From Syntrophorhabdaceae bacterium (lineage in GTDB: Bacteria; Desulfobacterota; Syntrophorhabdia; Syntrophorhabdales; Syntrophorhabdaceae), in assembly GCA_028713955.1 (NCBI GenBank), contig JAQTNJ010000003.1, positions 1-50,518 of the forward strand: a stretch of 50,518 nucleotides of DNA, written 5' to 3'. A program made the translations under genes and the position numbers. The notes beneath the pieces are model-generated. The model was not told where the DNA came from. It saw only the letters and a program-made list of their open reading frames with translations, and did not search any database. This document shows, piece by piece, positions 42,915 to 46,816 of this stretch. Each line of letters opens with the position of its first letter. Positions within the stretch are counted from its first letter, which is position 1.

Positions 42915-43766
42915 TCATGCTGGAATGACAGTTACAGCCTGCCCCTTTAGGATCCCCTTCTTCTCTCTGAGATTGCCGCGGTAATACCCGAACTCAAGAT
43001 ACCCGGAGCTTCCGGTCAGGCACGTATAATCATTTTCGTAATAACTTTTGCAGATGGTTGTAAACGACAGGTCATTGATGCTGATCGTAAATGATCTGCC
43101 CTGGATGAATCGCTCGAGGGTGTCGACGTGGATGTTCGTGATCGCGTTCCCGAAACGGTCGAAGCGTACAACCTCGCCGACAAGGCAGTTATCTTCAATG
43201 ACAGGGGATATGTCTGCAAACCGAACCGTATCGGGTATCATCCTCCCGAAGGCAGATGGATGGAATCCCGTTGACAGGTAGGCAGCGGCAGGCGCGAAGA
43301 TGTCCCGTCCATGAAAGGTGGAGCTAACCTCCCTGCGCATGAACTCCGGACTTTCTATTACTGGGGCTTGCGTCGCCCCCTCCGTCAGCGGAAGCTGCCA
43401 GAGCCTCCCCCTCATGTTCGCTATACTCACAGTATCGATTTCATATGCCTCGTATCCGCTTTTATAAAGGAGGGTGAAGATGCCGTTGTCGGGACCGACG
43501 AAGAAATGATTGTCCTTCGTGACGATAATGGGACGCCTGTTGCTCCCGACAGTAGGGTCAACGACGCAGAGGTGGACCGTGTCGTCCGGGAAATACCGGT
43601 AATACTCTTCAACGATGAACGCGCCTTCCCTGATGTCCTGGGGATCCACCTCGTGGGTGATATCCACGATCGTCACGCCGGGATTGATGGAAAGGATGAC
43701 CCCTTTCATGATGCCGGCATAGGGGTCTTTCGTCCCGAAATCGGTTAAGAGGGTTATGATCTTCAT
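42915..43766 (-). CDS. DUF62 S-adenosylmethionine hydrolase/hydroxide adenosyltransferase with repeat-derived insert
   Basis: 283 residues from ATG 43766 (MKIITLLTDFGTKDPY is the family opening; a frame from 43814 extends into an upstream palindrome). VDITHEV, FVGPDNG and STFHGRDIFAPAAA are the signature SAM-binding motifs, and FGNAITNI the C-terminal one. Enzymes of this family hydrolyse SAM to adenosine and methionine. Between PDNG and TFHGRD there are about 54 residues, where family members I know have about 30 to 40. The extra stretch, around RGRLWQLPLTEGATQAP, is coded by DNA that matches an intergenic repeat at 46571-46620. It lies downstream of mtnA on the same strand, a sensible SAM-salvage neighbour. 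Confidence 0.88.
   Translation of the reverse strand: MKIITLLTDFGTKDPYAGIMKGVILSINPGVTIVDITHEVDPQDIREGAFIVEEYYRYFPDDTVHLCVVDPTVGSNRRPIIVTKDNHFFVGPDNGIFTLLYKSGYEAYEIDTVSIANMRGRLWQLPLTEGATQAPVIESPEFMRREVSSTFHGRDIFAPAAAYLSTGFHPSAFGRMIPDTVRFADISPVIEDNCLVGEVVRFDRFGNAITNIHVDTLERFIQGRSFTISINDLSFTTICKSYYENDYTCLTGSSGYLEFGYYRGNLREKKGILKGQAVTVIPA
43363..43413. repeat. Dispersed palindromic-type repeat, copy A, inside the DUF62 coding sequence
   Basis: The blocks 43363-43383 and 43401-43413 match 46571-46591 and 46608-46620 at 32 of 34 positions, with a variable 17-base centre (16 bases in the other copy). The copy is read through in frame as peptide. Confidence 0.75.
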
Positions 43767-43789
43767 TTTAAATAAGATACGCTGTGAAA

Positions 43790-43933
43790 AACGGTGCCGG
43801 AATATCCCCCGCAAACACGCTCATTCCGCTCCAGCGGCTCCAATCGCTCGCGTTCGGCTTCGGAACTTTTGCTGCGCAAAAGACCGAGCTTCCTCGCCTC
43901 ACGACGGTTTGCCGGGGATATTCCGGCACCGTT
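43790..43933. repeat. 144-bp inverted-repeat element (MITE-like or large palindrome) between mtnA and the DUF62 gene
   Basis: Arms 43790-43816 and 43907-43933 are 27 bases long and complementary at 26 positions, closing a 90-base loop that itself contains short palindromes (for example TTTTGCTGCGCAAAA at 43867-43881). It fills most of the 197-base gap between the two genes. No terminal duplication is evident. It could be a nonautonomous mobile element or a strong mRNA hairpin. Confidence 0.7.
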
Positions 43934-43963
43934 ACTCGTCCTAATGGAAAATCCTGGTTTGAC

Positions 43964-44992
43964 CTAATCAAAAAGCATCCTGATATATTTTTTGAAGGGT
44001 TTTTCAATGATGCCCTTCTCGGTGATGAAGTTCGTGATCAACTGCGCGGGGGTGATGTCGAAAGAATAATACCGCGCCTTCACGTCCTTGACAGTGAGCA
44101 ACTGTTTCTTCAGGTACTTGACCTCTTCCCCGCCCCGCTCTTCTATGGGGATGTATGTGCCGTTTCCGATGTTGGGATCGAAGGTGGAGACCGGCGCGGC
44201 GATAAAGAAGGGGATCCTGAACCGGTGCGCTGCCAGGGCTATCATGAAGGTGCCGACCTTGTTTGCCGTGTCGCCGTTTAAGGCTATCCTGTCAGCGCCG
44301 GTGATGACCTTATCTATACCCTTATTGGAGGCGAGAAACCCCACGTTGTTATCGGGGATAAGCTCAACCGGGATTCCTTCCTGGTATAGTTCCCAGACCG
44401 TGAGGCGGGCGCCCTGGAGGTAAGGCCTTGTCTCTGTCGCGATGACCTTGATCTTTTTTCCTGACTCATGTGCTGCCCGTATGACACCGAGGGCAGTGCC
44501 GTAGCCGCCGGTTGCGAGGGCGCCTGCGTTGCAGTGAGTGAGTATGGTGTCGCCGTCATCGATCAGCTCAGCGCCGTAAAGAGAGAGCATCCTGTTATTC
44601 TCGATGTCTTCAACGTGGACCGAGATGGCCTCCTGGAGCATGCTGTCCGGCATATCGAGGTCATCGTGAGACCTGCCATATGCGTCCTTCATTCTCTTCA
44701 ACGCCCAGGAAAGGTTCACGGCCGTTGGCCTCGTGGCGCTTAGCTTTTGATATATCCTGTCCATATCCTTGCTGGTGAAGCGCCTTTTCGATACGATAAC
44801 CTCACGGATTCCCAGGACCACGCCGTATGCGGCAACGATCCCGATAAGCGGAGCGCCTCGCACCGTCATATTCCGGATGGCGACCGCGACGTCCTTTACA
44901 GTCCTGCAGCGGACGTAGGTCTTCTTGAACGGCAGCTCCCTCTGGTCGAGGAGATACAGCGAGCCATCTTTCCAGTAAATGTGGTCAGTCAT
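43964..44992 (-). CDS. mtnA: S-methyl-5-thioribose-1-phosphate isomerase
   Basis: 342 residues, full length. RGAPLIGIVAAYG, THCNAGALATGGYGTALG, DNNVGFL and GADRIALNGDTANKVGT are the family motifs, including the catalytic cysteine (HCNAG) and aspartate (GADRI). The enzyme isomerises methylthioribose-1-phosphate to methylthioribulose-1-phosphate in methionine salvage. The related eIF2B alpha group is excluded by these motifs. It lies between gatB and the DUF62 gene on the minus strand. Confidence 0.95.
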   Translation of the reverse strand: MTDHIYWKDGSLYLLDQRELPFKKTYVRCRTVKDVAVAIRNMTVRGAPLIGIVAAYGVVLGIREVIVSKRRFTSKDMDRIYQKLSATRPTAVNLSWALKRMKDAYGRSHDDLDMPDSMLQEAISVHVEDIENNRMLSLYGAELIDDGDTILTHCNAGALATGGYGTALGVIRAAHESGKKIKVIATETRPYLQGARLTVWELYQEGIPVELIPDNNVGFLASNKGIDKVITGADRIALNGDTANKVGTFMIALAAHRFRIPFFIAAPVSTFDPNIGNGTYIPIEERGGEEVKYLKKQLLTVKDVKARYYSFDITPAQLITNFITEKGIIEKPFKKYIRMLFD

Positions 44993-45012
44993 GATAAACC
45001 CCTTAAAGAAAG

Positions 45013-45090
45013 CTGTCAGCCATCAGCGATCAGCACAAAGCCTTTTTTGTTTTCACTGTCTACTGACGACTATCTACTGACGACTATCGA
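45013..45090. repeat. Short tandem and dispersed repeats between gatB and mtnA
   Basis: TCTACTGACGACTA occurs twice in tandem (45059-45072, 45073-45086). The nearby CTGTCAGCCATCAGC (from 45013) is of the same GCTATCAGC-like type as 47898-47932. Confidence 0.75.
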
Positions 45091-45102
45091 CTGCCTCTAT
45101 CA

Positions 45103-46551
45103 TCAGCCCTTCAGCCTCTTCAGCATCAGTTCGTTGAGCAGTTTCGGGTTCGCCTTGCCTTTTGTTTCCTTCATGACCTGGCCGACGAAGAACCCGAGGA
45201 GCTTCTCTTTGCCCGCCTTAAACTCTGCCACCTCTTTCGGGGAGCGGGCGATCACCTGGTCAATGGTTGCGATGATCGCGTCTTCATCGGAGATCTGGAC
45301 CATCCCCTTTTCCTCAACGAGATGTTTCGGGGAGACACCGCTTTTGTATAGTTCCGGGAAGATGTCCTTTGCTATTTTGGCGCTTATCGTATTGTCCTTG
45401 ATGAGCGACAGCAGCTCCGCGAGGTGAGCCGGAGACAACGGCGAATCCTTCGCCGATGCGTTCCCATCCTTTAATTCGCGGAGGAGCTCCGTCATGATCC
45501 AGTTGCTCACTGTCTTTGGTTCAGGGAAGAGCCCGATGGTCTCTTCAAAGTAACGGGCGAGGCCCTTGTCAGAGACGAGGATCTCCACGTCATATCTGGG
45601 CAGGCCGTATTCCTTCATGAACCGCTCCGTCTTTTCCACGGGCAGTTCAGGCAGGGATTGCCTGACCTCTTCTATCCATGCATCGTCAACCATAAGGGGA
45701 AGGAGGTCCGGTTCAGGAAAGTACCGGTAATCGTGTGCCTCTTCCTTGCCGCGCATCGAATAGGTGATGCCTTCATCGACATTAAAGAGCCTGGTCTCCT
45801 GGACAATTGTGCCGCCTTTCCCTATGACATCGATCTGCCGCTGTATCTCGTAGTCGAGGGACCTCTCAATAAATTTGAAGGAGTTGAGGTTTTTCAACTC
45901 TGCCCTTGTGCCGAGTTCCTGAGCCCCTTTTTTTCTGACCGACACGTTGGCGTCGCATCTGAAACTTCCCTCTTCCATGTTCCCGTCGCAGATCTCAAGG
46001 TAGACGAGGATGTCCCTGAGCGTCTTGAGGTACTGGACAGCCTCTTCGGGTGTCCTCATATCAGGCTCACTGACGATCTCCAGCAGGGGGATGCTGGAGC
46101 GGTTGTAATCGACGAGGCTATATGTGCTTGTTTCAATGGTCGCTTCATGAACGAGCTTCCCCGCGTCCTCTTCCATGTGGACCCTCTTTATTCTCATCCT
46201 CTTTTTGTCGCCGTTGATGAAGACATCGAGGTAACCGTTCTCACAGATGGGTTCCTCGTATTGGGATATCTGGTAACCTTTTGGAAGGTCCGGGTAATAG
46301 TAGTTCTTCCGGGCGAAGATGCTCTTCCGGTTGACATCGCAGTGGAGCGCGATCCCAACCTTGATCGCAAAATCTACCACCTTTTTGTTGAGCACGGGCA
46401 GCGCACCCGGCAGCCCCATGCATGTCGGGCAGGTATGACTGTTCGGTTCAGCGCCGAATTTTGTAGAGCACCCGCAAAAGAGCTTGCTGTCCGTTAAAAG
46501 ATGGGCATGGACCTCAAGACCCATGACGCCTTCGTAATCACCATAATCCAT
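45103..46551 (-). CDS. gatB: Asp-tRNA(Asn)/Glu-tRNA(Gln) amidotransferase subunit B
   Basis: 482 residues from ATG 46551 behind AATGAGGTG; a GTG at 46558-46560 adds three residues. [40 protein letters not shown] and the YqeY-like tail ([13 protein letters not shown]) are hallmarks. GatB binds and phosphorylates the mischarged tRNA in the GatCAB complex, which supplies Gln-tRNA and/or Asn-tRNA. Cysteines C32/C34-type and CPTC form the zinc site (FCGCS, TCPTC). gatA and gatC are not in the window. Confidence 0.97.
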
Positions 46552-46570
46552 TATATACACCTCATTTTCC

Positions 46571-46620
46571 GGGGCTCACGTCGCCCCCTCCACGAACAGA
46601 GTCCGTGGAGCCTCCCCCTC
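46571..46620. repeat. Dispersed palindromic-type repeat, copy B, intergenic
   Basis: GGGGCTCACGTCGCCCCCTC begins at 46571; GAGCCTCCCCCTC is at 46608-46620. CTCCAC (46589-46594) and GTGGAG (46605-46610) form a small stem across the centre. It lies in the 265-base gap between gatB and mtgA and matches the copy inside the DUF62 gene at 43363-43413. Confidence 0.75.
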
Positions 46621-46816
46621 GCGCTCGTGAACTCGCTACAAAATATAAGGGCTCGGGGTTTGCCCCCTCCAGTATCGAGCATCCAGTACCGAGCACCGGG
46701 TTATCAAGAAATATACAACAAGAATCGTGCCTTTTCAAAAGAATTGTCGAGAGGCGGTCAAATAGGTTATAGGTAATATGCAGGACACGACCATATACAA
46801 TGAACGGTATTTTTTT

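Follow-up and report, generated by a model that had tools for sequence, protein, structure and literature searches.

The window analysed here is the whole stretch of 50,518 nucleotides, and all window coordinates refer to it. It raises the question of why the reading frame of an enzyme gene contains a segment that recurs between genes in the same stretch. The answer we favour, with a probability of roughly 0.85, is that the segment is a copy of a dispersed, non-autonomous, multi-hairpin mobile element of about 80 base pairs, which entered the SAM hydrolase (DUF62) gene in the lineage of the window and was tolerated, with the gene remaining under selection.

The SAM hydrolase gene and its insertion

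The relevant features of the window are as follows.

42918–43766, minus strand: SAM hydrolase / SAM hydroxide adenosyltransferase (DUF62) gene, 283 codons (Pfam SAM_HAT_N, 3.9e-56; SAM_HAT_C, 1e-12)
About 43362–43442, plus strand: in-frame insertion of 81 bp, 27 residues (109–135), placed by DNA comparison of filled and empty sites in five same-genus genomes and by protein alignment
43355–43440, plus strand: element copy found by covariance model, target included (71 bits, E = 8e-19)
43355–43359, plus strand: CTATT, a case of the left-side CNATT target (target statistics; empty-site comparison)
43363–43379, plus strand: hairpin 1, GGGGC-TTGCGTC-GCCCC (stem invariant in 57 copies; predicted in the DUF62 copy)
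43380–43403, plus strand: hairpin 2, a variable stem that is imperfect in the DUF62 copy (covariation across copies; folding of the DUF62 copy)
46563–46646, plus strand: second element copy, intergenic, directly 5' of gatB (85 bits; site A, a locus that is filled, decayed or empty in relatives)
45106–46560, minus strand: gatB, downstream of the intergenic copy; basis for placement of the host (93% identity to Syntrophorhabdaceae-related MAGs)

A preliminary description of this DNA reported that two blocks of the gene match the intergenic copy at 32 of 34 positions with the same spacing. The figure is right, since the blocks at 43363–43383 and 46571–46591 are identical at 19 of 21 positions and those at 43401–43413 and 46608–46620 at all 13, but the intervening gap is 17 nucleotides in the DUF62 copy and 16 in the intergenic copy. 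This two-block pattern occurs at exactly two sites in the window and was absent from 100 dinucleotide shuffles.

Orthologous DUF62 proteins from the same genus are 257–260 amino acids long, and relative to them the window protein carries the additional peptide EIDTVSIANMRGRLWQLPLTEGATQAP at residues 109–135. Thus, the insertion is in frame as first proposed, although it adds 27 residues (81 bp) instead of the 22–25 originally estimated, with its exact ends ambiguous by about 3–4 bp. The empty site is directly visible because the orthologues of five same-genus species lack the insert, as do all other aligned homologues from the family and order; the alignment suggested in the preliminary description therefore places the insert in the window gene and in none of the homologues compared. 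At the DNA level, one relative (G004) reads TTTTCTATTAC followed directly by ATATGCC, whereas the window reads TTTCTATTAC, then TGGGGC...GATTTC, then ATATGCC, a difference of exactly 81 bp. Comparison of filled and empty sites reveals no target duplication, and CTATT is already present at the empty site of three relatives (G003, G004 and G005). Solved members of the family likewise lack the insert, with query residues 103–141 lying opposite chain residues 103–119 of PH0463.

A separate inverted-repeat element, AACGGTGCCGGAATATCCCC...GGGGATATTCCGGCACCGTT, is located at 43790–43933, beside the start of the DUF62 gene. Its inner 28-mer, CGCTCGCGTTCGGCTTCGGAACTTTTGC, has 37 occurrences in the genome, 35 of them identical, and in about ten copies the hairpin element is nested inside an inverted repeat of this type.

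A modular element and its distribution

The host is Syntrophorhabdus-like, with a GatB protein that shares 93% identity with its counterparts in UBA7527, UBA5758 and one Syntrophorhabdaceae MAG. Its genome (3.45 Mb) is in 371 contigs, and the context of the copies was studied on individual loci. The 21-mer of the element occurs 34 times genome-wide; allowing up to three mismatches raises this to 60, whereas the reversed control has no match. A covariance model trained on 57 copies gives 71 matches at E ≤ 1e-3, both window copies among them. The search for further copies that had been set beforehand thus yielded dozens, and the proposal of a dispersed repeat is borne out, with a unit of about 80 bp.

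The consensus includes an invariant hairpin 1 stem (GGGGC/GCCCC in the 57 aligned copies) and a 10-bp hairpin 2, in which seven pairs have both sides changed among the aligned copies with pairing kept. A C-rich linker follows hairpin 2 and leads to a variable third hairpin, which forms a perfect stem in 38% of copies compared with 5% of shuffles. Some copies contain inserted internal hairpins such as GCACCCGCAAGCGGGTACCCGG, and the element also forms tandem arrays with a spacing of 80–90 bp. Because of these three hairpins, the internal inserted hairpins and the tandem spacing, the element, whose ends are not exactly defined, is a modular multi-hairpin unit and not the single palindrome that was first described. 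Known structured RNAs do not account for it, as a search of Rfam 15 with a cutoff of E = 1 found nothing at window positions 43200–46800, and only tRNAs were matched in seven element-bearing loci.

Other repeats often border the element on its right. In the host genome, TATAGGTCCAATAAGTCCTATA-type repeats often abut it (for example on contigs C60, C80 and C257). In other genomes, the right end is often followed by a GATTCCCACGGGCAAGCCCGTGGGAATC-type hairpin (for example at loci L059, L068, L102 and L114), which could be an additional, fourth module of the element or simply a repeat next to it.

Representatives extend well beyond the host. The 21-mer with at most one mismatch is present in 33 of 198 genomes sampled as relatives, all but one of which belong to the same family or order. 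In GTDB contigs, the matches listed include MAGs labelled Nitrospirae, Troglogloeales, Syntrophus, Syntrophobacterales, other Deltaproteobacteria, Bdellovibrionales and Acidobacteria, and no Rickettsia record is among them. These MAGs carry from 1 to 137 model matches per genome; the high counts are lower bounds because at most 150 candidates were scored per genome, and one or few copies in a MAG could reflect a binning error. Spread on phages or plasmids was considered and rejected, as searches of viral contigs, PLSDB plasmids and INPHARED phages gave no match.

Target preference, orientation and movement

The target position was taken as the five bases ending three nucleotides before GGGGC. 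At this position, 62–66% of copies agree with CNATT at three or more of its four informative positions, compared with 5–6.5% in flanking DNA, and 29–32% carry an exact CNATT, compared with 0.3–0.4% in flanking DNA. The preference exists on the left side only. At intergenic sites A, C, D and E, species differ at a given locus, which may be empty, filled, in partial decay or occupied by another hairpin-2 variant; some intergenic sites align poorly in relatives, and sites F, G and H were left out as too diverged. These filled and empty sites, together with the spread across phyla, uphold the suggestion that the repeat is mobile.

Orientation is also biased. The gene to the left of the element is mostly directed away from it, in 28 of 39 cases in the host genome (p = 0.009) and 65 of 86 cases elsewhere (p = 2e-6). 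Of 118 loci, 79 have the element on the C-rich strand (p = 3e-4). Strand-selective insertion could produce such a bias, but so could selection against orientations that do harm. As the element tends to point away from the start of the left-hand gene, it is often antisense in the 5' untranslated region in the host genome and its relatives, where a regulatory effect is possible.

The element would have entered the SAM hydrolase gene beside CTATT, moved by an enzyme acting in trans, most likely an IS200/IS605-like (HUH) transposase working on single-stranded DNA. Three characteristics suggest this type of enzyme: the one-sided target preference (CNATT at the left end), the lack of a visible target duplication at the DUF62 site, and hairpin-forming ends. 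We consider mobilisation in trans by such a transposase to be a little less likely than not. The mechanism is something that we infer, as the search for transposase genes with the element on their flanks gave none. A dedicated RAYT/Y1 transposase was sought and rejected: the four Y1_Tnp genes of the host genome are not flanked by the element, and clustering of ORFs near 120 copies elsewhere revealed no recurrent transposase.

Two Y1 (RAYT-like) genes of the host genome, at C7:16181–16504 and C138:3198–3521, are flanked by inverted repeats of the GGGGTCAGGTCTTTTAT type. These repeats fit the GGGGWSAS motif, which has been reported for TIRYT genes (PMC3733652).

The copies might instead arise by template switching, gene conversion or reverse transcription, with the hairpins made by the copying process itself. 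Mosaic copies with internal hairpin modules, different hairpin-2 types at one orthologous site and the lack of a linked transposase are all consistent with such a process. However, the strong one-sided CNATT preference, and its presence in the DUF62 site before insertion, point to site-selective cutting. This alternative is a serious one that we nevertheless hold to be somewhat doubtful.

Consequences for proteins and relation to known repeats

The insertion would be tolerated because its length is 81 bp and one of the antisense frames across it is open. The DUF62 gene with the insert still looks to be under purifying selection, because its dN/dS values against relatives (0.135–0.199) are as low as those of insert-free pairs (0.139–0.246). 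The protein alignment reveals that all family-invariant residues are kept, including D70, R77 and H152, which we take to be the catalytic triad of the SAM hydrolase family. The predicted structure retains a confident family fold, and residues 121–147, which overlap the insert at 109–135, have pLDDT values below 50. The enzyme would gain a loop of 27 residues that is probably flexible. We infer that the lengthened protein is made and works, its production being suggested by the open frame and the dN/dS values.

Alternatively, the insertion could be real and the enzyme dead or dying, with the open frame a coincidence of a recent event. The window branch has accumulated 16 inferred residue changes compared with 9 on the branch of the nearest relative, and the insert is close in sequence to the conserved FHGRD motif. 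Against this, dN/dS is as low as in relatives, the gene contains no frameshift or stop, and the family-invariant residues are intact, which makes a failing enzyme unlikely.

The same kind of insertion is found in other genes. Naive ORF spanning gave many spurious 'intragenic' copies, and therefore in-frame cases in a sample of about 130 copies from other genomes were kept only with support from Pfam, PDB or homologues. At least seven genes besides DUF62 carry supported in-frame copies, as listed below with one further candidate.

L081: ammonium transporter (AmtB), in-frame copy
L113: Mfd, in-frame copy
L134: NfnA/GltD-like oxidoreductase, in-frame copy
L140: MBL-rhodanese protein, in-frame copy
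L154: spermine-synthase-like protein, in-frame copy
L162: DnaJ-TPR protein, two in-frame copies
L142: MltD-like protein, in-frame copy in sense orientation
L169: further candidate in-frame copy, without Pfam support

The oxidoreductase aligns to an uninterrupted homologue at locus L152 with a clean gap of 35 residues. PDB chains give the same gap for this protein and a jump at the same region for the MBL-rhodanese protein; the alignment of Mfd to PDB chains does not extend as far as its insertion. Most captures are read antisense in a frame that encodes EGAT[RQ]AP followed by x-I-[D/E/A/G], giving the signature EGAT[RQ]APxI, and the isoleucine codon of this signature derives from a backward reading of the CNATT target. 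Few copies are intragenic, which would be expected if selection removes most such insertions.

Two weaker explanations of the DUF62 segment were also considered. One is that the repeat was mis-joined into the gene during assembly of this metagenome-derived genome. The assembly has 371 contigs, and several other copies lie near contig ends. However, both flanks belong to the same gene and are in frame, the junction fits the target preference of the family, the DUF62 copy has its own sequence variants, and in-frame insertions of the same kind occur in independent genomes, all of which make a chimera very improbable. We give still less credence to an ancestral enzyme loop lost by all relatives, with the intergenic likeness arising by chance or by later copying from the gene, because every aligned homologue from the genus, family and order, as well as the PDB homologues, lacks the segment (the aligned homologues reach order and phylum level only) and the 71 copies share a conserved structure independent of the DUF62 gene.

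In-frame structured repeats are known from the palindromic elements of Rickettsia (RPEs), from Wolbachia, and from ERIC/RU elements and REPs (PMC2229807, PMC2759123, PMC3733652). The comparison with RPEs made in the preliminary description is sound as an analogy, since both are structured repeats in dispersed copies that lie between genes as well as in frame within conserved genes (here DUF62 and at least seven others), where they add a tolerated peptide. The element nevertheless lacks defining features of an RPE. Published RPEs are 105–146 bp long and form one long stem with terminal inverted repeats (PMC2229807), and these descriptions set them apart from an element of about 80 bp that has two consecutive hairpins and a variable third, lacks a terminal inverted repeat, and spans several phyla of free-living bacteria.

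The CGTC-tagged REPs, which include RPE-4 and RPE-6 (Di Nocera 2013, PMC3733652), resemble the element in having CGTC by a GC-rich stem, dispersed copies, intragenic copies of 20–30 residues and no dedicated transposase found. They are defined by a stem of 8–9 bp that nearly always starts with A-T, an adjoining tag and a loop of 4–5 nucleotides (PMC3733652). In the element, however, CGTC belongs to the loop side of hairpin 1, with GCCCC directly after it. Five nucleotides further on comes hairpin 2, whose stem of 10 bp begins with CTC, and the multi-hairpin unit is longer.

GTAG REPs, BIMEs and REPINs, which are mobilised by RAYTs, are also non-autonomous, mostly intergenic, mosaic hairpin clusters (PMC2817692, PMC3116915, PMC3733652). 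Unlike these, the element has no GTAG tag at its invariant end and no RAYT gene that it flanks, and its clusters are head-to-tail arrays of 80–90 bp units. The ERIC/RU elements of enterobacteria are small, non-autonomous units with open frames fused to genes; they are MITE-like and 103–168 bp long, and several have TA termini and target duplications (PMC2759123, PMC2229807), whereas neither was seen in the element. Its ends (GGGGCTYRCG and the GCTR region) also lack the terminal inverted repeat of a classical MITE, and the DUF62 site shows no duplication.

A search for earlier descriptions by the sequence CGTCGCCCCCTCC found none in a literature in which subscription journals were sparsely covered. 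The phenomenon itself is known, but this family appears to be undescribed, as do its target rule and its reach across phyla. Discussion of mobile hairpins in reading frames has so far centred on Rickettsia, Wolbachia and REP-rich Proteobacteria, and a direct empty site is now available for a different, widespread family in several phyla. Tentatively, we propose a hitherto undescribed family of structured mobile elements that crosses phyla and depends for its movement on a strand-selective enzyme recognising CNATT and hairpins. Such a family might repeatedly seed EGAT[RQ]APxI segments into conserved proteins, both in free-living anaerobes and in groundwater bacteria. If this is true, palindrome insertion would be no speciality of Rickettsia but a process by which proteins in general acquire insertions. 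The family offers a peptide fingerprint and a target rule (CNATT) that can be searched for, and its natural pairs of orthologues with and without the insert provide a test of how proteins tolerate sudden insertions of 25–35 residues.

The contig that carries the DnaJ-TPR gene (JACRHA010000068.1, a 6-kb Nitrospirae contig) contains five copies of the element. Two of these are in the DnaJ-TPR gene itself, where they are read in two different frames.
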